64,000 nt of DNA from Diphasiastrum complanatum (Eukaryota; Streptophyta; Lycopodiopsida; Lycopodiales; Lycopodiaceae): NCBI GenBank assembly GCA_029204225.1, contig CM055092.1:18965222-19029221 (forward strand), written 5' to 3'. Both the position numbers and the translations under genes were made by a program. Shown here in pieces: positions 20,088 to 62,644 of this stretch. The notes beneath the pieces were generated by a model. That model was not told the origin of the DNA, ran no database searches, and saw only the letters and a program-made list of their open reading frames with translations. The stretch's first letter is position 1. Each line of letters begins with the position of its first letter.

Positions 20088-20919
20088 CTAAGTAGCACCA
20101 GAACGGCGTTCCAGGCCCCCACGTTCCAGAACGCAGTGTTCCGGAACTCCAGAACGTTGTTCCCCAAAAAAATGGAAATTTCTTTGTTAACAGCTCCATG
20201 TCTCCAAAAGTCTCACAGTTGCAAAGAGACATCTACCAAAGTAGAGCTACTGCTACCTTTGAGAAAGGTTGCTCCTAGTTTAGTCATTAGTAATTTTTTA
20301 GGAGTTGTCATTACTATAGCAAGTTGTTCTTCTAATTAACAATTGTTGTTGCTCAAGGATTTGTTTAATTGCCATCTCATCAAACTAGATCTTGTTCAAA
20401 TCTAAGTCATCACCCTATCCAGTTGTATCAAGTACAACCAAATTACCGAAACTCAAAGTAAATTGTACCATTTGTCAAGGATTTCTTTGATGATTGTACC
20501 GGAGTTTGACTAATGTACATGTACCTTTTGTACCATCTATAGTCACTAATAGTTTGACTTGGGTCCCATACCTGATAATACCAACCTGATCTTATATTTG
20601 CAACAACTATACCTCCTTATATCCCTATCATTTAGTCATTTCTAGTTACTTGAAAGTGCAATGTACCCTTGGTTCCAAAACTTACTACTGGAGTTGCCCA
20701 GACTCCGTTATCCATTTTCAGTTGATAGTGTTGACAAGCTAGGAGTTAGTAGTTACTATGCCTTGCAATGTGTTTGAAAAAAATTTCACGTCCCTACATG
20801 TTTTTCCCCACCCCCACCCAACACAGTTTAAAAAAAACCAAAAATAAATAAAATTTGCAATGTTCCGATCTAGAACACTGTTGAATCCTGGAACCGTTTC
20901 GAAATGTTGTGCATCTATG
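20088..20919. mobile_element. hAT-type small element 1 (GTTCC/GGAAC arrays)
   Basis: 832 bp. Flanks GATCATTT (20080-20087) and GATCATTC (20920-20927) match in seven of eight bases. Left end CTAAGTAGCACC, right end GTGCATCTATG. Near both ends are inverted GTTCC and GGAAC half-sites (CGTTCCAGAACG, GTTCCGGAAC). The AT-rich interior has no recognisable gene. Confidence 0.72.
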
Positions 20920-20927
20920 GATCATTC

Positions 20928-21200
20928 TTATGATTGACTACTATCACAACTTTTGCTTGGGGCCCCAACATTGAGGACAATGTTTTTTTCAAGTGGGGGA
21001 GAGTTATGTACTAGGAATAGGCCTTAACTAGTCTACCCTTAGGCACTGGGCCATTATCATTGAGGCCATCTCCTTATGGGACCCAAGAACCTTAAGTTGC
21101 CCTAATCTCTAAAAGGTTCTAATAAGGGCCTCTAGATAGTATATATAGGGCCGTCATTTATTGATTAGACAACTTATGATATTGATTACTTTCTTAGTCC
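20928..21200 (+). mobile_element. 3' end of a Ty3/gypsy element: polypurine tract and LTR start
   Basis: GTGGGGGAGAGTTA (20993-21006) is a typical gypsy polypurine tract, preceded by ACATTGAGGACAATG, the usual end of a plant gypsy pol. The LTR begins TGTACTAGG at 21007 and contains a TATA-like GTATATATAGGG near 21138-21150. The LTR 3' end was not found. Element 1 at 20088-20919 sits inside this copy. Confidence 0.7.
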
Positions 21201-24200
21201 TAATTAGGTTTCAGCTATCCATGGCTTGTAGGACAATGTGCATCTATGCTATTCTTGTAGGGATTTATCTTGTTGCCTCATATATGATCTTTATGCTTCG
21301 TTGATGCTAAAATATGTGACTCAGTTCATAACTATGTAGAGGAAATAAATCAGCAAATATAATTATATTCCGACATTAGTAGTCTACAAAGTTAAAAGAC
21401 CTATTTTTGCTCCTTGTTGTGTCAATATTGGGTTGGTTTTTTTTTTCTGTGTGTGCGCTATTTTCAAATTAACCTATAGCCTTGATATGTGACCTTGCAT
21501 GTGAATGGTTTTATTTCTTTTTCTTTTAGAAGTGAGACCACCCATCATAAAAATTAGTCTTAAATATTGTGTTTCATGTAAGTGTGTCACAACAAGCACC
21601 ATAAATTACTACAAAATTTGACAAGGGAAACTTACAAGCAAAAGCGTCTTGCATGACTCAAAAATGGAGTTGTTAAAAAAACCAATGATCTTACAGATGA
21701 TTCTTTCAACATGCATTTTACTCCTCAGAACTAAAATTTCATGACTGCAGAAAATGGTCATAGAGTCAAAACAAATGGAAAGCAACTATGCTCCAAGCTC
21801 AAATTATGCATTTCTTCAATGAGGGAAGAAAGATTGAATTACCAGGTAAATAATTGATCCCTTAAGGAGTCGCTAAGTAATAGCAAACCTCCAATGCAAA
21901 CTCCATGCAATACTACCCAGCTTAACTTGACACTCCATCCAACTTGTCCGGAAACTTGGTTCATTGGCTTAATTCAACCGAAATAATGAACAATAGCTTG
22001 AGCACTTGAGAGGATCAAGAAGTAAAATACGAGCTTGAGAACACCAGGAGACATACCTACAATCACTTCTAGGATTTCTTTCTTCTTGAAGAGACCCTGC
22101 CACAAACATCTATGTCACATATTGATGAAATGCAAAGGTACTGAGTGATAAGATATTGGATGATCTTTATAAAGGACAATATAGATCAAGCAAATCATTC
22201 AAATATTTATAGATTTTAGAACCTGACAAGCAACGTACTTTACAATCCTTTGATGATGATAAAATGGGGACATGCAAGCCAAATTTAGGACTACCAAGGA
22301 CTCCCATTTAGGGTTTATACTATCATTGAAGTTTTCCTTAGCTAGAAGCTTTAGAACTTGATGAGGACAATATTATTCTTTTAGGTTTTTCATGATACAT
22401 CCTAGCCCTCATTAGCCCTGTCAACGCAGGTTTTTGCTGGACACACCTATTTTATCCCTCCCAATTTACATATTATCTAAAATTTCAATGCTTGAACTTT
22501 GATCTAAAAAATTCAAATCCACAAATATTTTATATTCAAAAAAAGCATCAGTGTTCCATGACATTCTCCAATTCCCCCACCCTTGACAACATTCTCACTC
22601 CCAAGGCTCCATATGCTCCCCAAAAAACTATGACTTGAGGTACTGACTTCTAGAAGGAGCTGGAGGTCCTTCAAGGGTAGACAAGTAATGAATATTGATT
22701 GCCACATGGTATTGAAGAGCACAAAATCCCATGATTTGTACAAACTATAGGTTCCAAGAATATGTACATAGATGGCACACAAGTTAGCCTAGATGATTAT
22801 TGGAGTCATCAATGTTGGATCTAAAGTGGCCTCTTACCCTCCCACTGTGGTGAGTCTATTCCCTTTGTACTTTCTACTTTGAAATGAAATTCTTTCTCTT
22901 GTGTGTGTATGCATGTTAGGGTTTCTTTCCCTGCTCTTTTCATCTAAGCAAGGTAGTTGCATGCTTGTGATATAACTTTTGTATGGGAGAAAGTCTCAAT
23001 TAACAATGAGAAAGTATGTTCTGTGTTTGGAGAAACCTTATTCATGCTTGATTTGTGTGAATGAAGAGGAGAAGCATGGCGCATGTGGAGAACCTAAGAT
23101 GGACTGTGTTCATGATAGAAACTTATGCATCAAAATGTGTGCAATGATTTTAAGTGGGCTACCCTCCATTGAGAGTGGAGGTGGCTAATTTCATGTCTTC
23201 GGTGGCATGATCCACACGGGTGAAACATAATGTGGTAATGAGTCTAGAATACCTAGACTTCTTGGAATTTGTGCAAAAAAGTTGATGTTCAATAGAAGAT
23301 CCTCTAGTGCTAGAGAAGAGTACAAAGGACCATGAATTTCATAAAACCTTGTGTGTTTGGTCTTTGTTACTGAAGAAACCTCAAAAGTAAGTAAAAGGAG
23401 CTCATTGGCAACCAAGGATTGTGCTAAATCAGATCTCAGTAGCCTAGGGGGGGTTTTTTGTAGCAGACCGGGATCAAACATTGCTACTAGCATACATTGT
23501 TCAGGAAGTACTACCATTGCAGTAGTACTACTGCAAGGTACAAGAAGTGTCATAGCAGGTTCAAAAATGTGAATAGAAGCTAATTGCAGGCCATACCAAG
23601 GTGTACAATAGCGAACATGTGTTTAATAAAGGGGATCAGATTTGTACCTGGTGGAAAGGTGAAGTTTGAAAGTGGTACAGTAGCAGGACAAACTGTCAGA
23701 ATATACCAGGTCAATTTGCAAGTTGTACAAAAGTTTACAGGTTCATGTGTGACAAATAATAATTGCAGGATAGCAGTCAGCACGTGTGAATCAGAAAATA
23801 TTCCCATGATATAGATGTGCGGACAACATGAGCAAATCAGTAGCAAGACAAGGATTCAGAGATTAAGGCCAAATGGAGGAGATTAATGGAATCTGTATAC
23901 AGCTGTCAAGAAAATCACAAAACATCATCCAATCATTCGTTCCATTAGTGAGTCATAATAATTAGAGGGCCTAAGAATGGTATAAAATAGCCCTCCACAA
24001 GCTACTCATAGGTGATTTTGGAGAATCTCTTAGTGTTGTGTACGGTCTTCCACGTGTGGATTCTAGAAAGAGAGGCTCTATGTGTTTGCGTGTTCTAGAG
24101 TCTTCTGTTGGCGGAAAAAAGGCTGCCCCAATTCTAAGGTATGGCACGTGGCAAGCGCTTTGTTTTAGGCTATGCTCTTAGTTAGTAGAATTTCATAATA

Positions 24201-24880
24201 TTGCATGCTATCTCTCCTTGTGTTGTGATGGTGCACTAATTAATGCATTATACTATTTGCAAAGTTAGTTTGAAGTATGAATGTGTTTGCTAATACGAGC
24301 TATGTTTGTTAGGATCTAGATGAATCATGAAACCCCAGCATCATATTTTGATAGCATACCAAATTTTCTTACATCTGGTATCCGGATCGACTTATAAATA
24401 TTTGTTTTCAAATTTGTGCCTAGTTTGTGCTGGTTTGTGTCTAGTGCCTTGTTTATGTGAACAGAAAGCCTTCTGATTATGTTGGAGATTGTGCCTCTAA
24501 CTTTTGTTTTATAGCTTGTGTACAAAACATTCAAGAAAGCTTGTGTGTATGTTGTAAACTTTACATTTGAACCCATGATCCATGAAAAATATTTCTCCTT
24601 GTGCCTATGTTATGTATACTTGAAAATTAGGGACCCATGTGTTCCCATAGAATGTGCAGCAGAGTGCTAAAGGTTTCTCTTGCAATCAACTAGTGACACT
24701 TGGACCTTACTCTTTGCCAAAATCACTACCATGCATCATGACACGTGGGACCTCACTTTACAAGTGTCAAAAAAATTGAAAAGGTGGAGAAGGGTATACG
24801 AGGTCGTGGAGAAGGAAAAAATTCTATCTTTCAAGTAGAGTGCTTGAGGGGATAAACATGAGTATCCTCAAACAGAGGTA
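21201..24880. other. No gene recognised
   Basis: Long AT-rich stretch with only short frames. Part is probably the remainder of the gypsy LTR. A TATA-like site at 23981 is listed separately. Confidence 0.4.
23981..23990 (+). promoter_or_regulatory. TATA-like box, possibly of a decayed LTR
   Basis: TATAAAATAG followed by CCCTCCAC and, some 30 bp on, a CT/GT-rich stretch resembling an LTR R region. No LTR termini or partner were found, so this rests on local sequence only. Confidence 0.3.
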
Positions 24881-24908
24881 GCTTAGTATGAGAAAAATAT
24901 TTTTTTTT

Positions 24909-25000
24909 GCGTGTCCGTGTTTGCATTGCTCAATTCTCCTATGATAGCTTAGTGAAATTGAAGAATGATCTAAAACGACAATTTGCAAACACGGACACGC
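24909..25000. repeat. 17-bp inverted repeat and LTR patch at a broken copia junction
   Basis: GCGTGTCCGTGTTTGCA at 24909-24925 is the exact reverse complement of 24984-25000, which is part of the integrase coding sequence (ANTDTP). Overlapping its end, GCATTGCTCAATTCTCCTAT plus GAT at 24923-24945 is identical to 28027-28049 inside the 3' LTR of the same element. The upstream integrase, protease and gag are missing. Confidence 0.8.
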
Positions 25001-27690: not shown

Positions 27691-27714
27691 CTTCTAGGAG
27701 TAATAAATAATTAA

Positions 27715-30248: not shown

Positions 30249-30500
30249 CATAGTTGCAGCGCGATTCTGAATCGTGATTCAGAATCGCGATCAGAATCGC
30301 GATCCAGAATCGCAATTCGGGATTTTCCCAGAATCGTGTAGAATCGATTTTTTTTTTTTGAAATTTTTTTAGGCAATATGGGTATCAGATGAAAGCTCTG
30401 ATTGAGAAGATTATGACTATGTAGTTTGCCAACTGTTTCGGGTGCAGGATGGTCCAATTTAGGTGTATTCACTCCCAGGTTTACGCTATAGCTGCATCCC
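30249..30500 (-). mobile_element. hAT-type small element 2 (GAATCG arrays), far end unclear
   Basis: Left end CATAGTTGCAGCGCG at 30249, then repeated inverted GAATCG/CGATTC half-sites (GATTCTGAATCGTGATTC, GAATCGCGATCC) to about 30350. The interior on the minus strand (CACCTAAATTGGACC.. GAGCTTTCATCTGATACCCA) is homologous to the core at 35990-36090. The other end near 30490-30505 lacks an array and a clear 8-bp duplication. Confidence 0.6.
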
Positions 30501-30879
30501 ATATAAAAAAATTAAAAAAAAAGAGAACACATTGGGGCATTCCCCCAATGAACATAGCAAGAATCTCCCTTTCTGATTCTCCCTCTCTCTATCTCTCTCT
30601 CTGATCACAACAAACGGAACTAAACCCATGCTGTGAACAAAAACCCAGCTGAATCATTCTCAACTTTAGCCTCAAATGAAACAATTTTTGACAAAACAAC
30701 CATACTCTCTCTCTCTCTGCTCTGCTCTGCTCCTGCTCGCGATGGTGCTCAGCGATGGTGCTCCTGGTGCTCTACGACCCTGACTGCCCTGTCCCTGCTG
30801 TCCACCGCCCCAGGTCCGCCCTACCTTGTCCGCTCTACCCTGTCCACCCAGGTCCGCCCTACCCAGGTCCGCCTGCCGC

Positions 30880-32186
30880 CTGCCATTTCTTCCAATGCCA
30901 CCCCAAAACCCCCCTTCGCTGACTCTCCACTTCCCCTCACTGCTTCTTCTCCAGCCCTGCTCGCTACAGTCCCCCTCGCTACAGCTCCCCTCGCTTCCCT
31001 TGCTCTACCCCTCGCTGCCCTAGAAGATGATTGCGACTGCTCCACCCTCGCTGGCTGCCCCCCCCTCACTGATGGATGCTCACCCTCGCTAGCTACCTCG
31101 CTGACCTCCCCACCCCTATTCTCCCTCGCTGATGGCTCACCACTCACCGTTGCTGAAGGCTCATCACCCACCCTCGCTAATTGCCCATTCCCCACACTCG
31201 CTGATGGCTCGCTGTCTGCTGATGCTAGTGTACCCCCTAAAATGCAAGCAAAATGCCCGCCGATTCCACCACTTTCTGTCCATTCTGCTCCTCCTCCCGA
31301 TTCTGCTCCTCCTCTATCTTCTGACCCCATTCTTCCCGCACCGACCATTGCTCACTCCTCTTCCTTCCCAGCACCACAGCCTACAGCAAATATCCCGTAT
31401 ACACCTTCCAAATCAACCGGGCTTTTTTCCTCGTGGCAGATTGATCAAATCAAGGCAGAATTCCAGACTTTGCGGCATGAAATCTCACGGCTGAAAGGAA
31501 CTGTTACCTCTTTGATCAATGAGAAGAACATATTGCAGTCCAAGGTTGCATCACTCGAACAATCCATCAGGATCAAGCAGGCCGCAGTTTCGGAATCCAC
31601 CACCAATATGATACGGGAACTAGAAACTAAGATTGAGAAGCAACAAGAAGAGGCCCTTTCTTGGGCATCTGTTTTGAAAAAAGGCACCAAACCGAGCGCT
31701 CCCATCTCCTCGGTTATCTCAGCCACCATCTCGGAAGAGAAATCTCGAGACCAAAAAGCTCACAACATTCGAGTTCGAGGGATCCCAGATACACAGGATG
31801 CCTTGGCTGAAGCCAAACGCTTTCTCGACACCACTCTCAGGCACAGGACAGAGGGATTGGACACCGCATGGAGGACCACTAGAGATGCAGCCACACTCAT
31901 TATCCGTTTCACCTCCCTTGAGAGTCGACGAGATGCTTTGTGGTGCAGAGCTAAGCTACGTGGTACCACTATCTATATGGATGACGACCTCACATATATC
32001 CAGGTAGAAGAGAGGCGTAGGGAGTCATTTATCGAGATGGACGAGTGCACTTTCTTGACAGCGCTCCTAGCAGCACTCAGTGCTAGGAATTTCGGGTCCC
32101 CGGGTTCGGGAGTGCCCCGGGGCCCCATCCACACCATTTCCGGATTGGAGTATGGAACTGTGATGGTATCCACTCATCTTCCATAG
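30880..32186 (+). pseudogene. LINE ORF1-like protein: coiled coil plus ORF1p-like C-terminus
   Basis: One frame stays open to TAG at 32184. Its N-terminus is a degenerate Ala/Pro/Ser/Leu repeat. About residues 270-340 (31430-31670) form a coiled coil (QIDQIKAEFQTLRHEISRLK). Next comes HNIRVRGIPDTQDALAEAKR, matching the position of the RNA-binding fold of L1 ORF1p, and TLIIRFTSLESRRDALWCRA with IYMDDDLT, parallel to the ORF1p C-terminal domain. Resemblance is by motif order only. The normal start codon region present at 17546 is deleted in this copy. Confidence 0.72.
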
Positions 32187-34481: not shown

Positions 34482-34545
<64 letters not shown>

Positions 34546-35600: not shown

Positions 35601-35836
35601 TCTTAATGGTAGAAAATCACTCAATGGTTCGAAAATGGACGACAATGGTCTTGAAAATGATGGCAAACTTGATAAATGCATTGCTCTCGAAAAACCCTTC
35701 CATTTGATACCCATATTGGCAATAGAAAAAAAAAACAGTGTTCCGGGAAACTCTAATGGGAAATCTAGGATCGCGATCCGGAACGTGATCTGGAAAAAGT
35801 TTCGGATCACGTTCCGGATCGTGGGCTGCAACTTTG
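35600..35836 (+). mobile_element. hAT-type small element 3 (GATCG/GGAACG arrays), left end lost
   Basis: The right end reads CTGCAACTTTG at 35836. Before it are inverted half-sites GATCGCGATCCGGAACG and GTTTCGGATCACGTTCC (35768-35820). The interior (AAATGCATTGCTCT, TTTGATACCCATATTGGCAA) is homologous to element 4. No left terminal repeat was found; it is probably cut by the LINE junction. Element 4 starts 8 bp downstream. Confidence 0.62.
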
Positions 35837-35844
35837 GTTTGACT

Positions 35845-36182
35845 CATAGTTGCCCAAAAACGCGTTTCTGGAGAAAAACGTTTCTAGAAACGTGTTTTTG
35901 GATCCAGAATCGCTAGAAAAAAATCAAAAACAGGTCTTTAAAAATTCATAGGGATTGACAGAATCCAACAAGGATTGCTGCACCTAAACTGGACCACATT
36001 GTAACTGAAACACTCGGCAACCTACATAAATGCAATGCCCTTGATTAGAGCTTTAATTTGATACCCATATTGCCCACAAAAATCAAAAAAATAAAATTTT
36101 AAAAAAAACGTTTCTGAGAAACACATTCCCAAACCAGAAACGCGTTTCAGAAACGCATTTCTAGAAACGCTGTGCATCTATG
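35845..36182 (+). mobile_element. hAT-type small element 4 (GAAACG arrays)
   Basis: 338 bp with exact 8-bp duplications GTTTGACT at 35837-35844 and 36183-36190. Ends CATAGTTGCCC and GTGCATCTATG. Arrays AAACGCGTTTC, GTTTCTAGAAACG (left) and AAACGCGTTTCAGAAACGC (right) surround a core homologous to elements 2 and 3 (GATACCCATATTG). Confidence 0.9.
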
Positions 36183-36589
36183 GTTTGACTTTAGGCTATA
36201 ACATTCTTTAAGTGGCCCGTAATATAATATTATTATTAAATTTAGATATAAATTAAAATGTACAACTTTGTCATTTTAATAATGATCCATCACCTAAAGT
36301 TTGAATCAATTGAAATTTACATGACAAAAGATAAACGCCTTATTATACGGCTTTGTATGAAAACTTGAAACTTTTTCAAAGATATTTATAGAGCCAATAG
36401 GCTTTTGGCCCATGAGTTGTTAAAAAGCCTAGAGTTTCTTTTTGAAAGGTTTTGTGTTAAGTTGTAAAAAAGATTTTCTGCAAGCACTTAGTCAGTTTAT
36501 AGACATTTGCAGTCTGTGGAGTACCGAGTAGACTTGCTGCTGACTCGACAGTCCATACAATCCATACTATACTTGCAACTGTCTGCACT

Positions 36590-36781
36590 TCGGACAGCGA
36601 TCCGAATGGCGACCCCCGATTTGGACAGCGATCCGAATTGTGACCCCCGATTTGCTGGGGGGTTGCAATTCACGATTCGCTGGTAAAAAAAAAATTAACC
36701 TAAAAAAAAACTGCAAATCTGGGTAGCGAATCGCGATTTCTGAATCGTGATTCCAACAAATCACGATTCACTGCATCTTTG
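36590..36781. mobile_element. Probable small element 5 (CGAATC/GATCCGAAT arrays)
   Basis: Left part: two copies of a 31-bp unit beginning GGACAGCGATCCGAAT at 36592 and 36623. Right part: GCGAATCGCGATTTCTGAAT and ATCACGATTCACTGCATC, ending CTGCATCTTTG. Organisation matches the others (array, A-rich core, array), but termini and an 8-bp duplication could not be fixed. Confidence 0.5.
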
Positions 36782-39015: not shown

Positions 39016-41170
39016 CTCATCATAGTCCAGCCCTTCCTGTTGAGCAAAACCTTTAGCAACAAGTCTTGCCTTATGCTTCTCCACCTTACCACTTGCCTGA
39101 TACTTGGTCCTGTAGATTCACTTGCAACCTATTGGTTGCTTCCCATCAGGTAAGTCCACAAGCTCCCATGTGTCATTCTCCATGATGGAGTCATACTCCT
39201 CTTGCATGGCATTTCACCATACATTCACCTTCTTGGCTTCATAGAATGATTGTGGTTCATGTGACTCTCAGATAGACGACATAAGTGCGAAGTTGGTCTC
39301 TTGCCTCTCTCGCTGCATGGGCTTCTTGTAAGATCTTGTAGCACCTTCCCTACTACATTCACCTTCCTCCATCATCCCTCCATCTTTCATTGTTTGCCAA
39401 TACCACCTTGGTAAGCTCTTGGGAGGGGGTGGTGAAGCTGATGGTGACCATGTATCCGAAAGTGTCTCTCTAGCCCTCTTCGCTCTTTCTGCCTCCGTTT
39501 GCTCAACATGCATTTGCTCTTGTTGTTGGGGCTGAAAAGTCTCCTGAATGGGCTCCTTTGAGACCTGCTCACTGGAATCAATAACAGGAAGATACTCCCT
39601 CTTACCATTGTTCTCATGCTCCTCCAACTGAGGTGCATGGTCTTCATCAAAGCCGACATCTCTACTCAGAATCTTCTTTCTAGTCTCAAGATTGTACAAT
39701 ATGTACGCCTTTGCTTCCTCACGGTAACCCAAGAATATGCACCTGACAGATTTTGCATCTAGTTTCTTTCTGTCATCCTTGGATATGTGTGCATAAGCAG
39801 TACAGCCAAATACCCAAAGTACTAGTCCCACCTTTGGCTTATTGCCACTATATGCCTCTTCAAGTGTAATTCCTTCTACCAATTTCGTAGGGCCCCTGTT
39901 CAACAAGAAAATAGCAATATACATAGCTTCAGCCGAAAAAGAGTTTGGCAATGCCTTAGCCTTGAGCACATAGTGACCAGGGAACGGGAACGAGCATGGG
40001 AACGTGAACAAGGAACGGGAATGAAAACAAAAATGGGAATAGGAATGGGAACGGGAACGCCACGTCAACCTAAACATAATCAAAACATACACATACGAAA
40101 TTTTGTATAGTGAAGTTACACATATTATAAACAATCCTCTTTCATTTATCTTGTTTTTAGGTCTTAGCAGAAACTGTGACCAGGGAACACGTTCCCAAGG
40201 CTTCCTCATTCATTTATCTTGTTTTTGAGTCTTTGTATAAATTGTGACCAAGGAACGCGTTCCCAATCACATTCCCATTCCCTGGGAACGCGTTCCCAAA
40301 CTCACGTTCCCGAGCACGTTCCCAACAAGAGCACGCTGGGAATACGTGGCACGCCTAAAAAGTCGCGTTCCCACGTTCCCTGGTCACTATGCTTGAGCAT
40401 GCTACGTGCACACTCAACTATGGACCTGTTCTTTCTTTCAGCAATACCATTGTGCTAAGGAGTATCTGGAGTAACAAATTGACGCTTGATTCCACTTGAG
40501 TTACATAGATCCATGAACTCTTTTGATATGCACTCACCACCTTTGTCAGATCTGCGTACCTTTATCTTCTTGGCTTTTTTAAGTTTCAACCAAAGCCTTG
40601 AAGATTTCGAAGTACTTGATTGCCTTAGATTTTTGCTGGAAAAAATAAATCCATACCTTCCATGACAAGTCATCGATGAAGGTCATGAAGTAGAAACCCC
40701 CCCTGCAAATGTATTTGCATAGGTCCACACAAATCTGAGTGTACAATCTCAAGCACTTGCTTTGCCATGATAGCTTCATTCTAAGGAAACTCTTTCTTTG
40801 TAAGTTTGTTGTGCCAGCACTCCTTTGTGTAATGCCCTGATTTCCTGCAAACAAAGCACTTTCTTTTTCGCACTACTTTCTTTCCAACTTCTGATTGATT
40901 TGAATGATTCTCCTCCATATCTTGTTGCTTCTTCTTCTTCTTCTTCTTCTTCCCTTTGCCACTCTTCTTGGAACTTTGCTCTTGCTTCTTTGCTAGGAAT
41001 GCCTTCTCCTTGAAATCGTCCTTGTTCACAATATTTTGTCGCCTCTTTTTCTCCTGTAGCAATATAGCATTCAGCTCATCGAAAGAAGGCCCCGTCTCCC
41101 GTAATGACAGCATCATCACAAAGTTCTGATAAGCTAAAGGTAAACTATTAAGCATAATAGATACCAACAC
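39016..41170 (-). pseudogene. Copia gag/pol, internally deleted and interrupted by a hAT-type element
   Basis: Minus strand from the right: gag C-terminus (SIMLNSLPLAYQNFVMMLSL, lysine run, zinc knuckle CFVCRKSGHYTKEC), then directly pre-integrase (LEIVHSDLCGPMQIH-like, GGFYFMTFIDD) with protease missing. Integrase follows (RRSDKGGECISKEFMDLC, AERKNRSIVECARSMLK). Element 6 interrupts it here. It resumes as AKALPNSFSAEAMYIAIFLL to KSVRCIFLGYREEAKAYILY. The linker leads to the RT start (EEYDSIMENDTWELVDLPDG, RLVAKGFAQQEGLDYDE), where the LINE junction ends it. Confidence 0.92.
39969..40391. mobile_element. hAT-type small element 6 (GGGAACG arrays) in copia integrase
   Basis: 423 bp, exact 8-bp duplications CTTGAGCA at 39961-39968 and 40392-40399. 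Terminal inverted repeats CATAGTGACCAGGGAACG and its complement are perfect over 18 bp. Arrays of GGGAACG on the left and CGTTCCC on the right (GGGAACGCGTTCCC). Two internal terminal-repeat-like copies (GTGACCAGGGAAC near 40179, GTGACCAAGGAAC near 40246) follow a duplicated TTCATTTATCTTGTTTTT. Excision of the element plus one repeat restores the integrase frame SMLKAKALP. Confidence 0.95.
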
Positions 41171-42208
41171 TAAATCCGGAACACTTTCTCCAACTGCTAT
41201 AAGTTGCCCTCTTAGATCTTTTACCCAAGTAAAGTAGTACTGATTTCACATGTACCCATCTTTAGTGTGTATAGCTTACTAGTCAAGAACAAGATTTGTG
41301 ATTGATTCACAGTCTCGTACAAATCCTTGAGTATATCCCAAGCCTCCTTAGGTCCAACAACATCTATGATGTGAGGTAATAGGTATGATCATATCTTTAA
41401 CTGACAAGTTGATGATATGATGAGCTTTTCTCCTCCGTCTCTCATATTCCCGCAACCCCCTGTCAGTACTAGGAGGTATCTCGACACCTATGACGATCTC
41501 CCAGTATCTCCCAGTACAACAACCTGAATTTCCAGCAAACAGTTTCTTGCTTCAACCAATAAACAGTCCTACAGTTTGATTCAGCAGCCAACGGTCTGTT
41601 TCCAACAACAGTTCGGATCTACTTTCAACTCAACGAACTAGTCCTATAGCACCAGCAGCGATCCAACACCAGTGGTAGGTTTGATCCAGCAGCGATCAAC
41701 CAGCAAGATTCTGATTCCAGCGATCTGATTCAGGCAGCAGCTATCTGTCTTAGCAATCTGTCCAGTGATCAGTAGGCAATAACCTGATTTCAGCTCAACG
41801 ATCAGATCTGCTCTGATTCCAACCACAAAACAGCCCTGGTTAGGCAACCAACCAGCGATCTGTCAGCACTGACAAGAAACCAGCAAACAGATTAGGTTTC
41901 CAGCAGCAATTAGGTTCCAGCTATCCAGCAAACCAATCAGTTTCAGGCAACACTCAGCTAGCGATCTGATTCCACCAGCTCGGCAATCTGGTCCAAGTCT
42001 GATTCCAGCCAGCAAACTGTTTCCAACAACAGTTCAGCCCGGTGATCTGTTTCAAGTTCAATGATCCAGACAGGGATCAGCAAACAGCCTATAAATCTTC
42101 TCCTAGAAGATCCGTGTTGTCCTCCTAACAACGTCGACTCCACATGCAGCTTCAGCTCCAATAAATCTGGTTGCAACCCTGCAAACGATCCTTCTCTCTC
42201 TGTCACAA
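41171..42208 (-). other. Copia gag N-terminus remains and repeat-rich leader
   Basis: 41171-41500 is broken gag sequence. About 41520-42160 is built from a degenerate unit close to CAGCGATCTGATTCCAGCAA (plus strand) repeated many times with variation. This is the untranslated leader between the primer-binding site and gag. Confidence 0.65.
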
Positions 42209-46255: not shown

Positions 46256-46280
46256 TTATCAATTTTTCCTCCATAGCATA

Positions 46281-46756
46281 TGGTAGAGTCCAATTACGAC
46301 TCTATCATGACCTCGGCACGGCCGGTTACCAAAGGGCCTGAGGCCTAGTGTTGGCAAGGGTCGGTGACCGACGAGGACATCTGTCCCAAGTTGGGACCGG
46401 TGCGTCATGAGCAGTGACCCGGTGTGACCGCCTGACAAGCTGTCAGAGATGCGGTGTGTCTTGACCGTCGGGACCCTAGCCGTCAATGACGAGATGCTAG
46501 CCGACAAGCAGTCGGGGTGACCAAGAGGGCCACAGGTCTTTGGCGGGGCACGGGGGTGGTACCCTATGAGTCACTCAATATTCACAGGTCACAGGGGCCA
46601 GGCATGCCAAGTGAACTGATCACCCACAGGTGGATGCCATGTGCCAGTTGATGGGAATAGCAGGTAGGACTCAAGGAGGAAGTGCCTATGGTTGGGAGGT
46701 TCATTCTACACACCGGCTTCCAGGATTCACGAGCTTGGAGAGACTGGCTTGTGACA
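46281..46756 (+). repeat. 5' LTR of the gypsy element
   Basis: 476 bp, TGGTAGAG to TTGTGACA. It is rich in GACCG/CGGTC-like short motifs in its first half. The last 200 bp match 49665-49866. Confidence 0.85.
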
Positions 46757-46758
46757 AT

Positions 46759-46770
46759 TGGTATCAGAGC
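46759..46770 (+). promoter_or_regulatory. Primer-binding site for initiator tRNA-Met
   Basis: TGGTATCAGAGC, two bases after the LTR end. Confidence 0.92.
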
Positions 46771-47570
46771 CTCGTTCTAGAGAGAGAAGCGTCCGTTCTA
46801 GAGAGAGAAAGTGAGAAAAAGCTTGGTTTTTTCACCATAACTTGGTCTATAGTGCTCAGATTTGAGGGAGATCTGTCTCAGATCATTTCTAGTGGGCAGT
46901 CGTTGTAGATCAGCAGGGATTCACGCCGCAAATCTCAGATTTCAGAAAGTTTCAAAGTTTTGGAGGGCCAGCGCATTTTTTTTTGAAGGTTCTTCGCTCA
47001 TAACTCTCCGGAACCTTCTCAGATCCTAATCAAATTTTGGGAGCATGTTCCTAGCATCCATAGCGATCCTATAGAGCCATCATACGCCGGGTTTGGAGCA
47101 GATTTGCCTCTGTTTCACCAAAAAGTCAGTTTTCAAGCAAAAAACAGGTCAGATTTTTGGATCAGGCGTAGCTTCTCCGATTTTTCTCCGGTTTCTGCTG
47201 TTAAGGGTGCAGATTGGGCCTAGTAGGAGGGCAACCTACTACCAATTGACGGTTCGTGAAAAGCTTTTGCCTTTTGGAAGAAATTTGACGTCAAACAGCC
47301 CGCTTTTTTCCTTTTTTTTCGAATTTCAAGCCGATTTGGTGCCCAAACAAAGTTTTTTCCGACTTTTGTACCAACGTAGGACGCAAGGGAAGTACTACCT
47401 GTCCTTGGCTTTGTGTTTTCCCCAGAGTTTTATTACTTTTCAGTTGCCTTTTTCTCTTTCAGTTCTAAATTGTGAATAAGCTGAAAATTTCCACATTTCC
47501 CTTTCCTGAGTGTGTTTCAATAAGTGCAATTTCTAGCTTGATTTTGTGTTGTCTCTGTTTTTGTTTCATA
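46771..47570 (+). other. Gypsy 5' leader
   Basis: About 0.8 kb, T-rich, between the primer-binding site and the gag start. No coding signal. Confidence 0.6.
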
Positions 47571-49016
47571 ATGGAAGATGATAGAGTTGATATTCCGCTC
47601 AGTCCACCCGTTGTTCTTCCATCACCACCACCCAGCCCTGCGCTTAGTCCTACCCATAATCCGCCTACAGTGGCTGCTCATTCGCTTGCTGGTACTTCCC
47701 CTTTTGTGAAAGCTCGCATGGATAGTGTGGAAAAGACCATCGCAGAGATGCGAGCAATGATGGTAGCTGGTGGTTATGCGTATTCTTCGCAGAAACACTC
47801 CCCAACGCAATACTGATATCGCGGATCAGTGGTTGCATAAGTGGGAAGAGTATTTTGATCTGAAGCGGTCCCCAACTGATGAGGGTTGGCGGGTCCGCAA
47901 AGCTGCTTACCATTTCACTGATTTTGCTGACAGGTGGTGGCGCAAATTGTTGAAGTCTAATTAGGCTCCATCCACCTAGCTTGAGTTTAAGCGAGCTTTC
48001 AGAGCTCAGTTTATTCCTCCACATGAGCATGTGCGTGCGACGGATGCTTGGCTTTTGCATCGTCAAAGGCTATACATGGTTTAGGAATATGCTGATAGGT
48101 ATCGTGAGACGCTTATCAAGATTCCAGAAGAGATTCCCGAGTGGCTAGTAGTCCACAAGTTCATATTTGGCCTTCGTGAAGAGTTGAGGCCTTCAGTGCT
48201 TAATGAAGGGTGCAAGACCTTAGAAGAGGCAGTTGCTACAGCTCTCAACTTTGATGGTAATGTGCGCACCAAGGCTGAATCTGGAGCGCCAAGCTGGCCT
48301 CAGAGGAAGGGTTCGTGAAAGTCTAGCCAAGCTAGTCAGGAAGGCTTTTCGCAGAAGGATCCTATCCAGATGCAGCAGACTTTGAAGCGCAAGGCGGGAT
48401 CTCCTATGGCTCGTCGTGCTTACGACAGTCTCCCCTTAGTCCTGAGCAAAAAGAAAAGGCCAAGAAAGACGGATTATGCTTTTTCTGTCTTGGCAAGCAT
48501 CTTTTCAAAGACTGTCCTCCACGTACGGGCAAGAAGCTCCATACTATGCAACGTCAAGATGAGGGCAAGGGTGAGGAAATTTTGGATGACTTGTTGGTAA
48601 GTGATGATGAGGACACTCGTCGTGTCATGACTATTTCGGTGCGGAAGCTTGTTCCAGAGGCACCGGTTTGTTATTTGTCCACCAAGGCGCAAGAAGCTTA
48701 TCAGTTTCCAGATAGTGAACTGATACGCATGAGGGGAAAGCTGGAGGGTCATGACGTGCTCATCTTGTTTGACACCGGTTCCTCGCATAAAATTATCAAT
48801 TCTCCCGTGGTGAGGAAGTTTCGCTTGGCTATTGTTCCATCTGATTACCAGTATATTGTTGAGATGCCAGATGGTAAGGGAACAGAGGTTTGGGATGAAA
48901 GAATCTCTCGGGCGTCTTTGTCTATTCAGACGTATACCGAAAAGTTAAATTTTGAAATTACTAAACTAGCTAAGTTTGATATTGTACTTGGTAAGCGGTG
49001 GCATGCAAGTAAGTAG
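47571..49016 (+). pseudogene. Gypsy gag and protease
   Basis: Gag starts MEDDRVDIPLSPPVVLPSPP at 47571. After a frame change near 47800 it continues ADQWLHKWEEYFDLKRSPTD and AYHFTDFADRWWRKLLKSN, with TAG stops near 47962, 47977 and 48082 and a TGA near 48317. The zinc knuckle is CFFCLGKHLFKDC (48477-48515). Protease follows in the frame open to 49016: VLILFDTGSSHKIINSPVV with the catalytic DTG, ending FDIVLGKRWHASK, TAG. Confidence 0.88.
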
Positions 49017-49189
49017 CCCGCTATAGATTTTAAGTCACATGTGTATAAGTTCGGGCATGAGGGTATGTCTCATGTCTTAAAGGGGGAGAGACCATCTGTT
49101 GAGGGTGGAATATAGAGAATGGAGATTCAGTATTTGTGGTTGTGTTATGTGAATGTTGATTCCAGTTTTGATTCTTATGTTGATAATAA

Positions 49190-49668
49190 TCAGATAAGCC
49201 AGTCCTCAAGATTGTGGATACCCAGAAACCTTTTGACCTAGAGACGGATGCAAGTGGCATTGTCGTAGGTGCAGTGTTGAGCCAAGAGGGTAGACCAATA
49301 GCCTTTGAGAGTAAGAAGTTGACACCAGCTCAACAGAGATATCCTACACACGAGCAAGAGCTGTATGTGATTATACAAACGCTCAAGGTGTGAAGACATT
49401 ATTTATATGGCGCCGAGTTTTATGTGTACATAGATCATCATACTTTAAAGTATTTTTGCACTCAGCCAGATTTGAAAGGCTGCCAAGCTCGGTGGGCCGA
49501 GCTGATGCAGGAATTTCACTTGGAAATTCGCTTCCGAAGAGGGAAGGAAAATGTGGTCGCTGATGCACTATCTCGTATACTGCATCAGATGAGCTTTACT
49601 ATGATTGACAGTGGTCTCATGGAGGAGATTAAGAAGGCTCAAGAAAAGGACCCGCATTGTCAGTGTTA
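49190..49668 (+). pseudogene. Gypsy RNase H, RT deleted
   Basis: Begins FDLETDASGIVVGAVLSQEG and RPIAFESKKLTPAQQRYPTH, then a TGA at LKV(W)RHYLYG, then YVYIDHHTLKYFCTQPDLKG and NVVADALSRILHQM. It breaks off at KKAQEKDPHCQC, where a partial LTR begins. The RT domain between protease and RNase H is absent. Confidence 0.88.
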
Positions 49669-49866
49669 CCCTATGAGTCACTCAGTATTCACAGGTCACA
49701 GGGGCCAGGCATGCCAAGTGGACTGATCACCCATAGCTGGATGCCATGTGCCAGTTGACGGGAATAGCAGGTAGATGGACTCAAGGAGGGGGTGCCTATG
49801 GTTGGGAGGTTCATTCTACACACCGGCTTCTAGGATTCACGAGCATGGAGAGACTGGCTTGTGACA
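49665..49866 (+). repeat. Partial 3' LTR of the gypsy element
   Basis: Matches 46560-46756 with a few substitutions and small indels (GGTAGGACTC against GGTAGATGGACTC). Its first approximately 275 bp, the polypurine tract and integrase were removed by one deletion. Confidence 0.88.
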
Positions 49867-50136
49867 TCATAGTACCCACGGTTCTCAGAACCGTGGGGTG
49901 AACCATACCACGGTTCATGAACCGTGGTACGATTCATCATAATTAATTTATTAATAAAATAATTAATTAATGTTTTGACCTCATTTGAGTAAAAATGAAC
50001 TTTAAAAAATATATAATTAATTAATTAATTATATATTAATCGGTTCACCACGGTTCTGGCCAAAAAATTTTGAGAACCGTATGGTTCTCAGAGCCGTGGT
50101 GAACCGTACACGGTTCATTAATTCTATACTCCATAG

Positions 50137-56185: not shown

Positions 56186-56310
56186 TTCCCGGATAGCGGG
56201 CAGCGCTCACGTCGTGACAGGCAGCGAGAGCGCTACCCAAGACCCTTTTTTTTTTAAATTTTCCTTCACGTTTGTTTTTTCGAGCAGCGGTCGCGCTACA
56301 CCAAGGGCAG
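56186..56310. repeat. GC-rich segment with inverted GCAGCG/CGCTGC-like sites
   Basis: GGGCAGCGCTCACG, GGCAGCGAGAGCGCTACCC and GAGCAGCGGTCGCGCTAC form loose inverted arrays in AT-rich surroundings, similar in style to the motif-array elements. Ends and an 8-bp duplication could not be found. Confidence 0.35.
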
Positions 56311-56791
56311 CTTGACCCTGCTCAAAAAAGACTTCCCATTTTTTAAATTTTTAACCCTCCCCTTTGCCCACCCACCCAAAACCATGCCTTGCCTGCCCAA
56401 AACACCTGCCCGCCCACACACTTGTGGGCTCACATCGCTAGTCAAATCATAAAAACCATATCATGATCTATAAAGTGCCCTAGAAGGTAGATCTTCAATG
56501 TATCCACTTACATAATCCATTTACAATTTGCTGAGTATGTTAGCAAAGCCTTCCTCCCAAAACAATAACAAAAACAAATCCCTAAGGTTGAACCAAAATG
56601 CACAAAAGGATACAATTCAATGAGAAATACAATACAAAAATACTCAATAACTCAACTTATAATGATCCAAATAATGACTTGTTCCAAAAACCTAACCTAT
56701 CACAAATCCAAAAAATGTGTTTGACAAAAAAAGATTGTCAAAATGAAAAACTGACCATCATAAACAAGAATGGAGCCAAAACAACATTACG

Positions 56792-56795
<4 letters not shown>

Positions 56796-56851
<56 letters not shown>

Positions 56852-57436
56852 GCACGCCTCTCCTTCTCTCTCTTGCCCTTTTATACTTTTTTCTCTTTCT
56901 AAAACCTTTTCTTTCTATGAATTTCTAGTCACATGTTCTCTCTAAAAAAATTTAAAATCACATGTTCTCTCTCTAAATATTTCTGAAGTCACATGTCATT
57001 TTCAATCATTTCAAATGCCCTTCATATAAACTTTAGGGCAAACGTGGCCCAATCAAATGGCAAAAAACTTGTTTTCTTCATCACTACTAACATTCTCTCT
57101 GTCTCTCTCTCTCTCAACTCACATTATTGCTATTTTTCATGTGAACCCTACAAAACCCTAAAAGATAAGAAAGAGGGCTTCTCTCTATCCTTATGCACAC
57201 TTATCATTCTCTTGCCCTTTTATAGATTTTTCTCTTTCTAAAAACTTCTCTTTTAATGAATTTCTAAAGTCACATGTTCTCTCTCTAGAAATTTCTGAGT
57301 GCACATGTCATTTTCAAGCATTTCAAATGCACTTCAAATGCCCTTCAGATAAGTTTTAGAGCAAATGTGGACCAATGAAAATAAACAAATTCCGTTTTGT
57401 CTATCATTGCCCACATTCTCTCTCTCTCTCTCTCTA
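56796..57436. repeat. (CT)n run and approximately 340-bp tandem duplication
   Basis: (CT)n at 56796-56848. The following segment (CTTGCCCTTTTATA.. TCACATGTTCTCTCT.. CATTTCAAATGCCCTTCA) recurs: copy 1 about 56848-57116, copy 2 about 57189-57436, with moderate divergence. No LINE 3' UTR precedes this run. Confidence 0.75.
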
Positions 57437-58871
57437 AAAACACCATGCACAAACAATAGCCCCATTGTACATAGATCTATGATACCTAAAAACATTACAA
57501 CCACTTGCCTCTCCAAATAGTTTGTGCTCTCCAAAGTCACTAGGAATTTTTGAAACAAAAATCAATAAATTTTTGTCACCAACACAACTAGATTTCATGT
57601 GTGTATAATGGCTCTTTAGAAATGTAGTTAGTTTGTAACATGAACTAATTTCATCAGCAGATTATGATTCAAAAGACTTCATAAGGAAACATAAGAGGGA
57701 TCATGGCTCATAGAAAATGAAATGTGGCCCATAAAAACATTCCAAGGTTTATCCATTGTCATTCATGCTTGTGATGTATTTCCTAGTGAAGTTTCTTACC
57801 AAGTTCACTTGTCATTGATTTAGTGCTCTGCGTGATTGCCTTTGCATGGCTTTATGGCCATTTTACCTTGCAAAAAGGTTGCAAAAAATACACTACTCAA
57901 CATGTAGGGAGTGAATATCAACAGTAAATAACAAAAAATAGATGGTGGCTGGGTTTAAGTGACCAAATTGTCCAAATCCAAGGCCCAAGTAGCCAGTCCT
58001 CAGCACAGGGAGACAGTGAGATAGTAATTTGATACACATAAGTTTGTAAAGTTTAAACTCGGCATGTTCGCATTTCAGCCTCATGATTCTATGCTGCATC
58101 AGCACCTGATTAGAATGTTCTAGAAAGCCTGAATACATATCTACTGTCTTACAAAAAGAACATTTGTACTTCAAATTGATGAGCTCTGAATTTCAGACCA
58201 AAAATTTCTGCCATGAAATTGTAGGAAGGGTAAGTAAAGAAATGTCATTGAATGTTTCCGGACTGCATAGATTAAAAAAAAGTATCCTGCTGCATCTAAA
58301 AAACAATGAACATAAATAGATTATGGAATAAAATTGTACGAGGGGTACTGCCATTGGATATTTCACATAGACTGCACAAATATAAATATTCTACTCCAAT
58401 AAAAAAACACCAGGAGGAAAATTTGGTTTCAATATTTGAAAAGACTGTCTGCAATCACAAGAGGGAAATGAACAAAAGTTACCTCAACCACTGAAAGAAA
58501 TGGAAATTTAGATAATAACTAAGTTGGCTTGTGAGTGTCATTTTGTGCTATATACAAACTTCAAAGCTTGATAAGTCAAGCAAGTTGCCAAAATTTCACC
58601 TTGGCTTCATCTACCAAACAACGCTGGACTCATCAGTGAGAGAAATTGTGCCCTTTGTATTTAAAGATCATAACTCTTTCAAATCATCTGATTTTTCCTT
58701 AATTGACTAACCATGAGGCAACTATGGCACAACTTTGTCAATTCATATCAGGCAAGGCCTCTACTAGTACTTTCACATGAATTTTACTAGCATGTAAACA
58801 TCCTTCCAACAGCAAACTTAAAGCCTAAGAAAATTCCTCTTTTAATTTACAGATGATTATTTCGTTTCAAG
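57437..58871. other. No gene recognised
   Basis: Probably intergenic, including the 3' flank or 3' UTR of the host gene that ends at 58872. Confidence 0.35.
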
Positions 58872-60354
58872 TCATATGAAACGTAGAGTAGACGCTGGAA
58901 AGCCCAAATCACAAACTTCTGCACCTTCAACAAGAGGTGAGTTAAGTGGCTGTCTATTCTTACTCGTATAAGAGTCCTGAAGTACAAATCCTTCCGTTTG
59001 GACAATGAACAATAATAGCACCATCATCTGATCATGTTGGCAGGATATACAAGGAAATTCCACCCAAGTTCTGAGCAAAGAACCATATACGTAATTTTGT
59101 GATCCGACAAGTGATGCTTCAAACATTTTACTTGTAAAATATCAGCTCTAGTGACAAAATTGAACCTGAAAGCAGCAAAAAGTGAAAGCACCTTGGCCAA
59201 GGACTTCAGCTTTATTTGGTGCTTACTCTACATGAGCAATCAATTTACGTTTGTAAGAGTGTGTGTCCGTTGTGAGAGGACTACTACAAGAAAAGTAATA
59301 CCTAGCATAGCTAGGTAACTTCTCAGATTTCAAGAATCCTCTTTGCTCAGATGTACAGTCCTTGCTTGTAACCAAGGTCATGTCTTCAGATCCTTGGACT
59401 CCCTGTCCAAATAATCGAAGTTTAGCAACAGGTGCCTTAAGTTCCATCAAAAACTAATGCAACAATACCTCTACGAAGATCAGACGAACTCAGTAATCAT
59501 GTCCATAGTTCTACACCATCTCAACTCAAACATGAAATGGCAAAGTTGACAACTTGCAATAGGACGTGATTGTAGACACCAGCAGCCAAATGGCTTACAC
59601 GTAGCTGCACCTAAAAGCATCTGTCGCTAGACATTCAAACCTTGTATGACTCATCTCTTTACCTTTGGTTACAAGAAACTCCAAGCAATATAGCACCAAA
59701 TTGTTGCAATTCCTTGTGTCACTTTTTTCACATAACTTCTGAGATTGACTGGCCCTTATACATCATCCTTATAAAAATGAAGCACAAGAATATCTCTAAA
59801 CTCATAGACAGACCTAGGTGTGACCAGCTTTCGTCCACAAGGTAAAGGCCTCATTCATTGCTAGCTATTCATGGAGGAAAATAGCGAAGTAGCAAAAGAG
59901 AACCTAGTAGAACCAAACTGTACGTCTAAGTTCACCTGTTCCAAACCAGAAGAAGATACATTCAGTGGTGCAACCATTGGGAAAGCAACAGAAGCATCAT
60001 CTTGCAGATTGGAAACATCTGTGCTTTTCCTTCGTCTGTTGAATTCGGCTTCCTCTTCTTTCTGCAAAAACCACTTTCGTATCAGATTTTAGTAGTGTGA
60101 GTTCAAAAACAAGAGAGAAAATGTCACCAGGTCTTGTAAATTATTTTCAGAAGATCATGTGAATTTGGAAGCTGGATAGAATAGAAATATTTCAATTCAA
60201 GAAGCTACTCCACAGTAAACGTCACAATCAATTTTGTGAGAAGGGCAAACAAGGTAAAAAAAATCAAAATTCAAGGAGCTCCTCTTAAATGAATTGTGTG
60301 ATAGTGTATGCATTCGAAAGTCAAATTCCACAGAAAGGTACAAAGAAATGCCAT

Positions 60355-60432
<78 letters not shown>

Positions 60433-62644
60433 TAAAAACTTGAGAAAGAAAATCAAGAAACAGATGAAGATCAGCAATGCTATTGTCACTAGCTAGTTTC
60501 AGAAGTTAAAGTGATTCCACAACCATCACAACATAGAAGACAAAATGCCACTCAGCAGGCATTGCCTATTCTCATCGTAGCGGAGCACATTGATGTTTGA
60601 ACTTCAAAGCCCGCCTCGTAGAAAGATCTACAGCAATCAACATCAACAATATATACAAGAAAAACAGGAAAAGGGAATTTAAGGAATAAGAGACGACGAA
60701 GAAAGATAAGTCAAATTAATTATTTAATGAACAGCCAAGTGCAATTGAATATGAGATGGAAAACAACCACAACCAAAAACAAACTGGGCATTTCCGCCAA
60801 AAAAAGGCTAGGGTGCAGTTGAATATACGATGGAAGACTGCCATAACTGGAACAACCTGTATTTAATGAACAAAAAAACAGCCAAGTGCAATTGAATATG
60901 AGATGGAAAACAACCACAACCAGAAACAAACTAGGCATTTCAGGCAAAAAAAGGCTAGAGTGCAGTTGAATATAAGATGGAAGACTGCCATAACTGGAAC
61001 AACCTGGGCATTTCAGCTTTCATTTCTCTCCTAAAACTCATGTCAAGCATCGCAAATATTAAGTTTTCAAAACCAAGGCAGTGATATTTTAGCATGTTAG
61101 TGCAAATATTGTTCGTAGAGAATAGGCTACATAAATTAACAAAAAGAAGGATCCAATTGACTGAAACACCAAAGCACCTATATATCACTACAATCACAAA
61201 ATGTATTCTGTCAATTATCACTTTCATTGATCATTGCAGCATAGAACACTTCCATACCTTTTAGTATGGAACATATCATTCCAGTAGTGGACGTGCTTAA
61301 ACCCTATGGATGATTTTTTTCTATCCAAAAGGACAACGCAATTTTGAAGCCCGCTTAAAGCTCGTTGCCTCCTCTTGTAGACTGTAGACCGTTACGTCAG
61401 ATTGATCTGTAGCTCCCAAATATGAAGCTCCCCCACTGCCTCTTCTTGAAGTCCATTACCAATTTGAACTACTATGGATTTTCAAGTTCAAGGCTTCGCT
61501 ATGAAATTCCTAGCATTTTTCTTAGGGTTTCCAAGCTACAGGCACCCTACTGGGGGTACTTCTAAAAGATTCCAAAAAATACAATAAGTTTCTAACCAAA
61601 ATTCCAGGTGCCGTGGTACGGCACCTGGTACGGCACGGGTGCGGTGGGTGCCGTACAGGTGCCGTGGACCTTCAGTTCCACAGCACCCACAGCACCTGAT
61701 TTTTTAATTTTATTTTAGTCATTTTTTTAGTGAAAACCAAAAAAAAATTTATAAAAAGAAACAGGTGCCGTACCATGGCACCTGCTACGGCACCCAGGCC
61801 CCACGGCACCTATGCCGTGGGGAAACTTTGTTTCTAACATAGTTCTTAAAAAAATATAAACACATACATACAGAGTACTTGGGCACTTGTGAACAAAGAA
61901 ACAACTATTCATGCGGAGCACAAAAAAGGAAAACAAGTGACAAGATCTCGTAAAGCTCCCCCATGTCCAACCTTATCTAAGTAGAGTTCAAGCTTGCATT
62001 AACTTTGAAGCATAGAGATTTCTAAGTAGAGTTCTCTCTTTCATAGACACTATTCATTGCCTTTGCACATGGAGAGTACAAAAAATCATCAGTGATTATT
62101 TCAGAATTTTTAGGTGATGTACGCTTAATTATTTTCTGGCAATATGGATCGAGTTATTTTTACTTGTATGTTTGGGACAAAGTCCCAATTTTAACCACAA
62201 TTTGCTTAGAGAACATTACTTCTAACATCAAGACCTCAACTTGGTATATTTCTTTCAGTTTAATGTGCATGTTATCCCAAAGCAACTAGCAAGTATATTC
62301 CATCATCCTTTGCTGATTAATTAGCAAATGTGGGATATCTTTTAAGGTGACGTAAGCTTGATTATTTTCTGGCAATATGGGTCGACTTATGTTTGGGACA
62401 AAGTCACAATTTTAGCCACAATTTGCTTAGCGAACACTACTAGCATCAAGACCTTTAGTCGGTATATTTCTTTCAGTTTAATGTGTTTGTTATCTCAAAG
62501 CAACTAGCAAGTAAATACCATCATCCTTTGCTGATCAATCAGCCATGCTGGGATATATTTGGGTAGTGATATTAGATTCTCATCAAAGAGTTCCATGAAC
62601 TGCTCATTTGCATAGCGTGCTTTCCTGCCTGCATAGCGCCTGTA
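58872..62644 (-). CDS. 3' part of an unidentified host gene, four exons in consistent phase
   Basis: Minus-strand exons: 62519-62644 (126 nt, YRRYAGRKARYANEQFMELF to IDQQRMM), 59936-60061 (126 nt, KEEEAEFNRRRKSTDVSNLQ to SSGLEQ), 59302-59453 (152 nt, FLMELKAPVAKLRLFGQGVQ to LPSYA) and 58872-59070 (ending LCDLGF-like CDLGFPASTLRFI, TGA). Boundaries: GGGCAG..ATG/GTATTT; TTTGCAG..CAG/GTGAAC; CATTAG..AG/GTATTA; GCTCAG to the stop. Phases 0, 0, 2 join without a stop. The last exon includes TWVEFPCISCQHDQMMVLLL. The 5' end and possible intermediate exons were not found. The family is not recognised. The large intron (60062-62518) carries a (GA)n, a tandem duplication and element 8. Confidence 0.58.
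60359..60428. repeat. (GA)n microsatellite, 70 bp
   Basis: A pure GA run in the host gene intron. It has no LINE 3' UTR beside it, unlike the runs at 12.9, 17.3 and 34.5 kb. Confidence 0.95.
60721..61006. repeat. Tandem duplication, period about 139 bp
   Basis: Copies start TATTTAATGAAC at 60721 and 60860 and share CAGCCAAGTGCAATTGAATA through to GCCATAACTGGAACAACCTG with few changes. It lies in the host gene intron. Confidence 0.9.
61597..61830. mobile_element. hAT-type small element 8 (GTGCCGTGG arrays)
   Basis: 234 bp, exact 8-bp duplications TTTCTAAC at 61589-61596 and 61831-61838. Ends CAAAATTCC and GGAAACTTTG. Left array GGTGCCGTGGTACGGCACC and GGTACGGCACGGGTGC; right array GTGCCGTACCATGGCACC and ACGGCACC..GGTGCCGT-like sites. 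A/T-rich core. It sits in the intron of the host gene. Confidence 0.9.
62112..62575. repeat. 234-bp tandem duplication overlapping a host exon end
   Basis: Copy 1 at about 62112-62345, copy 2 at about 62346-62575 (GATTATTTTCTGGCAATATG, CAACTAGCAAGTAAATACCA). The duplicated unit includes the 3' end of the exon at 62519 and its donor. In copy 1 the donor-equivalent reads ATGATGGAATAT, without GT. Confidence 0.88.

Follow-up and report, generated by a model that had tools for sequence, protein, structure and literature searches.

Subterminal repeats that the transposase binds are known from hAT transposons of plants and insects, and in maize Ac/Ds they are hexamers accompanied by short inverted tips, 8-bp target duplications and many short nonautonomous copies (PMC3260210, in the text examined). 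Here we describe eight hAT-type loci in a 64,000-nucleotide stretch of Diphasiastrum complanatum DNA (C1:18965222-19029221, called the window below; the genome has 1.74 Gb in 5176 contigs), which are named by their positions in kb as 20.1, 30.2, 35.6, 35.8, 36.6, 40.0, 49.9 (with its first bases at 46.3 kb) and 61.6. All eight are short noncoding elements of the miniature inverted-repeat transposable element (MITE) type, they belong to several families of one large plant genome, and their inverted arrays are built of a GNNNCG half-site. The end motifs are common to whole subfamilies, and related subfamilies with the same core differ in the motif throughout the array. The eight loci resemble Ac/Ds in the traits named above, but in Ac/Ds it is AAACGG and the 11-bp tips that define the group while the fillers vary, whereas in our elements it is the core that persists and the hexamer that differs between subfamilies; even in Ds1, only 17 of the 331 elements carry at least three AAACGG (PMC3260210). 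With tips of the CATAG and CAAAG types and GNNNCG half-sites, the present elements fall outside Ac/Ds. For hATpin (2005), the title reportedly names MITE-like hAT elements that occur in diverse plants and fold into stable secondary structures.

Three animal systems are also comparable in the parts of the reports examined. Herves, a hAT element of Anopheles gambiae, has one subterminal motif at both ends, CGATTCAT, which its transposase binds and which is sufficient for this binding; the motif contains CGATTC, the half-site of 30.2 on the other strand, but a six-base overlap may be coincidence, and Herves is unlike our elements in being an insect element with one motif (PMC3143072). The BED domains of Hermes, a hAT element of the housefly, bind cooperatively to two subterminal repeats that form a quasi-palindrome, but its motif is AAG(T/C), its palindromic pairs are few, and the text examined holds no subfamily switching (PMC10368747). 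In Galileo of Drosophila willistoni the inverted-repeat ends were restructured by tandem repeats and recruitment, but it is a member of the P superfamily with much longer repeats, and the text examined holds no motif switching (PMC4168063). No description of half-site switching between subfamilies was found in the open-access literature by titles and abstract openings, subscription papers lying mostly outside this search.

The preliminary description of the window had proposed hAT-type elements with half-site arrays, and this was borne out by a scan against shuffled windows and by the target duplications. Five loci had been credited with the 8-bp target duplication of hAT elements, four of them exact, and indeed we found it exact in 4 of 8 loci and at 7/8 in 20.1; none that fits the ends was found for 30.2, 35.6 and 36.6. 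The short terminal inverted repeats expected of hAT elements were CATAG[AT]TGC, CATAGTGACC, CATAGTACC/CATAGAATT and CAAAATTCC/CAAAGTTTCC, and with lengths of 214-832 bp, no coding capacity and many similar copies the elements are MITEs. Eight open reading frames of the window gave no match to any hAT family, and the elements are too short for a transposase with a BED finger and a dimerisation domain. The Rfam scan of the window gave no match, nor did a scan of viral contigs with a 21-base core pattern. To detect arrays, CG-containing 6-mers repeated in both orientations were counted per 200 bp by a scan blind to the reported loci. Ten block-shuffled windows never gave more than 3 repeats, whereas the scan reached 5-9 at 30.2, 36.0, 40.0, 49.9 and 61.6 kb. 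A threshold of at least 4 added 36.6 kb, and CG-containing 5-mers at a threshold of at least 5 added 20.1 kb and the left arm of 35.8, the shuffled baseline belonging to the first 6-mer scan only. Thus, 7 of the 8 reported loci were recovered, the 35.6 array not as a separate locus. Of 4000 random intervals, 39 had an exact 8-bp duplication within 10 bp, and 2 had such a duplication whose boundary also carried a 4/5 terminal repeat. A chance origin of the loci was therefore rejected by the shuffled windows and the random intervals.

The motif had also been described as uniform within a copy and different in every copy. Uniformity stood for five loci, in which the dominant half-site made up most of the GNNNCG sites (30.2, GAATCG 7/9; 35.8, GAAACG 8/9; 40.0, GGAACG 15/20; 49.9, GAACCG 9/12; 61.6, GTGCCG 8/14), while 20.1, 35.6 and 36.6 are mixed, with top shares of 3/8, 3/12 and 4/12. 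The second half of the claim failed already in the window, since GAATCG occurs in both 30.2 and 36.6 and GGAACG in 20.1, 35.6 and 40.0. The statement that both ends of a copy use the same half-site was mostly correct: among the six two-armed copies, only 1 of 720 left-right pairings was as good as the observed one, namely the observed one itself, and all six right arms and five of the six left arms preferred their own partner, the exception being the left arm of 20.1, which is nearer to the right arm of 40.0. The base at -4 of array CG dinucleotides was G in 50% of cases, compared with 20% in the rest of the window, and 11 of 13 array arms folded with z of -3.4 or lower.

We therefore turn to the genome, where the motif tests covered five families, those of 30.2, 35.6, 35.8, 40.0 and 49.9; for each query the first-look candidates were counted, 40 were scored and a subset of the copies was fetched. 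The 35.8 query gave 3332 candidates; the 39 other scored copies had 87-95% identity, and in 36 the match extended over both arrays. GAAACG was commonest in 20/20 fetched copies, of which 15 had an 8/8 target duplication when boundaries were allowed to shift by a few bases. At non-CpG sites the left array, core and right array diverge from the consensus by 2.4%, 2.3% and 3.5%, respectively, and at CpG sites by 9.5%, 9.5% and 11.6%, which means that the 35.8 array mutates much like the core. With 30.2 as query (2714 candidates), GAATCG led in 18 of 20 fetched copies and shared the lead in 2, and the arrays varied in unit number, also between close copies. Here 26 of 39 other relatives aligned only from base 25-60, but a motif switch was rejected for those that were fetched, which had shorter arrays with the same motif. 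The 35.6 family was traced through a full-length copy in a random genome stretch (L009); among 1915 candidates, 25 other scored copies were near full length at 76-92% identity, and GGATCG and GGAACG occurred together in 21/21 copies. The 40.0 query (250 candidates) and the 49.9 query (1966 candidates) gave GGAACG and GAACCG, respectively, as commonest in 10/10 fetched copies each, with 8/8 target duplications in 3/10 and 6/10. Non-CpG divergence was lower in the arrays than in the core both in the 40.0 family (5.5 and 4.8% vs 7.1%) and in the 49.9 family (4.9 and 5.0% vs 8.4%), as expected of constrained sites. Each of the five tested motifs is thus common to relatives, and a private motif per copy was rejected; these are ordinary families, the array evolving along with the core and diverging by normal point changes, an outcome that the preliminary description had itself named as speaking against its claim.

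Nor are the eight loci one family, as had been supposed. Related cores in the window were found only among 30.2, 35.6 and 35.8: the cores of 30.2 and 35.8 are 73% identical over 143 columns (E 2e-21), those of 35.6 and 35.8 are 70% identical over 104 columns, and 30.2 and 35.6 are 63% identical over about 220 columns, arrays included. The other core pairs showed nothing clear above 100 shuffles each, with 36.6 and 61.6 marginal (score 34 vs shuffle maximum 32). By core there are therefore several families, and a single family for all eight loci was rejected.

Within the three related loci, which represent subfamilies C (30.2), A (35.6) and B (35.8), the core is kept, the tips are mostly kept, and the half-site is replaced throughout within a G-NNN-CG frame. 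Queries containing the array are biased, so a 14-base core word was used alone. It had 6658 exact matches in the genome compared with 2 for the reversed control, and the sample was 20 of the first 21 listed places (one was left out, lying 399 bases from another). These 20 copies carry at least five vocabularies: GAAACG in 5 (two with a single site), GAAACG with GAACCG in 1, GAATCG in 3, GAATCG with GAAACG in 1, GTACCG in 2, GTGCCG with GTACCG in 1 and GGAACG/GGATCG in 7. On an 84-row core tree the half-site label changed 6 times, compared with a mean of 43 and a minimum of 34 in 500 label shuffles, and a 64-row core tree had three clades (support 0.999, 0.915 and 0.937) with one vocabulary each; 35.6 groups with the 21 subfamily A copies at support 0.999. 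Subfamilies B and C have the tip CATAG[AT]TGC and the core in common, and the array between them differs. The half-site is thus inherited with the core, yet within one core lineage it has been replaced across the whole array on several occasions. The proposal that the array changes as a unit holds in so far as sister subfamilies with homologous cores differ throughout, but the unit of change is the subfamily and not the copy. Overall, the preliminary observation was partly confirmed and its interpretation partly supported: a different motif in every copy is refuted for the five families, and the subfamily-level version is supported. A single GAATCG stands beside the GAAACG sites at the inner edge of the left array of 35.8, as it does in 14 of 20 relatives, and may be left over from an earlier array.

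Point divergence was simulated with 20,000 pairs per rate, and different dominant half-sites arose in 1 pair at 10%, 0 at 15% and 0 at 20% per branch, in a simple simulation that started from one ideal array. As the cores are 27-37% apart, point mutation alone should scramble the array, so plain divergence is not the account. Our preferred explanation, to which we give a probability of about 0.6, is concerted turnover, that is, family vocabularies were inherited with the core, and sister subfamilies replaced the half-site array-wide as the contacts of the transposase changed. The half-sites would be contacts of the BED zinc fingers of a transposase, as the binding of subterminal repeats by Herves (PMC3143072) and Hermes (PMC10368747) suggests. 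An array may become homogeneous as its unit number changes and as its inverted half-sites are copied from one another by template switching. The array with the best fit to the then-active transposase would be amplified, its motif would then be frozen in the new subfamily, and later copies would decay solely through point mutations and the loss of CpG. According to the text examined, template switching makes short inverted repeats uniform (PMC8604942; PMC8794818), and it could be rewriting arrays that fold as strongly as these. Dyad partners matched beyond random pairs of the same copy in B (0.89 vs 0.61) and C (0.49 vs 0.25), the matching being less clear outside B and C and the copies of a family not being independent. 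The kept G-NNN-CG frame and the retained heterodyads of subfamily A both argue against a purely mutational account.

Several observations weigh against concerted turnover. Subfamily A keeps two half-sites stably, with GAT:GAA heterodyads in 53 of 111 dyads, which means that uniformity is not required and that hairpin correction is incomplete. The arms 40.0-left (z -0.64) and 20.1-left (z -2.04) do not fold notably. The tips are not strictly constant, as subfamily A ends in CTCAG/CAAAG and the GTACCG copies differ too. The copies behind the family counts and most tree rows came from queries including arrays, which favours matching arrays; only the 20 core-word copies are free of this bias, and in them the right arm alone was read. 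Finally, neither a transposase nor an autonomous partner is among the elements described, so binding is inferred.

A core could also have moved between hAT families with already different ends, by recombination or template switching in A/T-rich tracts, the motifs themselves remaining unchanged. Such an exchange of ends, which we consider unlikely, would fit the A/T runs that separate core from array in three window copies and in core-word copies, and also the tips that change with the half-site, since besides the A ends the GTACCG and GTGCCG copies depart from CATAGWTGCA. However, B and C keep the same tip on one side of a differing array and the same core on the other, the palindromic positions of three window arrays align in register (three sequences only), and there are copies that mix half-sites one base apart (36.6, L109 and L111). 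The strong folding of the arms, the varying unit number of close copies and the two half-sites tolerated by subfamily A would also be expected if slippage and template switching rewrote inverted arrays by chance under an unchanged transposase that tolerates many half-sites. That account appears improbable to us, because the G at -4 and the CG were kept, and because in two families, though not in that of 35.8, the arrays have diverged less than the core outside CpG. It is very improbable that each vocabulary simply marks a separate, unrelated hAT family without any switching: this description holds for 20.1, 40.0, 49.9 and 61.6 as far as cores tell, and each tested family is internally uniform, but the vocabularies of 30.2, 35.6 and 35.8 differ although their cores are homologous, the core word alone yields at least five vocabularies, and both core trees strain this reading.

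Concerted turnover has a narrower form, in which one hAT MITE lineage walked through binding-site space in single-base steps within the fixed G-NNN-CG frame. Conversion across the array would fix each step, and a transposase with a correspondingly shifted BED finger would amplify it. The triplets AAA, AAT, GAT, GAA, AAC, TAC and TGC form one connected graph of single substitutions, a post hoc observation that arose by chance in 1128 of 100,000 random sets and in 722 of 30,000 background-weighted sets. In the mixed arrays, 4 of 5 pair types are a single step apart, the fifth being AAT with TAC (L075) in a count that includes flanking sequence. This stepwise walk is tentative, and we regard it as rather doubtful.

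The individual elements are located as follows in window coordinates. Both ends and a target duplication are present in 20.1, 35.8, 40.0, 46.3/49.9 and 61.6. Element 20.1 (20088-20919) is flanked by GATCATTT and GATCATTC, the pair matching at 7/8; its arrays (20088-20175, 20850-20919) are of a mixed GGAAC(G) type, and its core is unrelated to the others. Element 30.2 (30249-30505, minus strand) has its array at 30249-30350. Element 35.6 (35603-35836, plus strand) is missing its left end and has its array at 35735-35836. Element 35.8 is complete (35845-36182, plus strand), with arrays at 35845-35915 and 36095-36182 and the exact duplication GTTTGACT; it starts exactly 8 bp past the end of 35.6, and those 8 bases (35837-35844) are its target duplication, which makes an insertion of 35.8 into a duplication of the older element 35.6 possible. 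Element 36.6 (36568-36781) has mixed GAATCG/GGATCG arrays. Element 40.0 (39969-40391) has 18-bp perfect terminal repeats and the exact duplication CTTGAGCA, and interrupts a Copia-type coding sequence on the minus strand (39268-41245). Element 49.9 had been described as split by a long terminal repeat (LTR) element, and this is right: CTCCATAG at 46269-46276 precedes its first four bases (46277-46280), which are cut off from the remainder (49868-50128), and the second copy of CTCCATAG follows that remainder as an exact 8/8 duplication. The LTR retrotransposon (46281-49867) sits four bases inside the element between 5-bp flanks GCATA/TCATA, and its two LTRs are 93.6% identical over a 204-column stretch; since it inserted inside 49.9, the hAT copy is older than the LTR insertion. 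Element 61.6 (61597-61830) has the ends CAAAATTCC and CAAAGTTTCC and the exact duplication TTTCTAAC.

The lower scan thresholds were also passed by CG loci at 12.0, 33.2 and 46.3 kb (46.3 by 5-mers only), and without the CG requirement about 20 more places reached 4 and one (45.0 kb, AAGGAA) reached 5. The arrays at 11.8-12.2 kb and 33.2 kb were set aside after reading as not hAT-like; 11800-12220 holds GGGCGC words in a run with one orientation predominating. Twenty-six random genome stretches had 14 array loci in 232,614 known bases, counted without a shuffled baseline; 7 of these use half-sites also seen at other loci of this study, and the remaining 7 are made of different words. One random stretch has a long run of GAACCG and CCACGG words (L009:4121-4840), which is probably one or more 49.9-family elements. 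At C15:11780745-11782084, one end of which lies in random stretch L027, three 35.6-family copies stand head to tail within 1.4 kb as a small tandem MITE cluster. Elsewhere in the window, 17531-18668 and 30624-32186 encode nearly the same protein by eye, with no Pfam family above threshold; this is possibly the first open reading frame of a long interspersed nuclear element akin to the one with a reverse transcriptase at 14014-15762.

It is an open problem how a transposase can change in step with its many binding sites when every site of an array has to follow. The thousands of copies, a shared core that orders the branches and several complete half-site vocabularies make this problem testable, as sites can be placed on a tree and then compared with the BED fingers encoded in that genome. 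The tempting reading of a private motif per copy is corrected, and what takes its place is a natural record of how transposon binding sites change. If only neutral template switching operates, the same record would show the block rewriting of inverted arrays.

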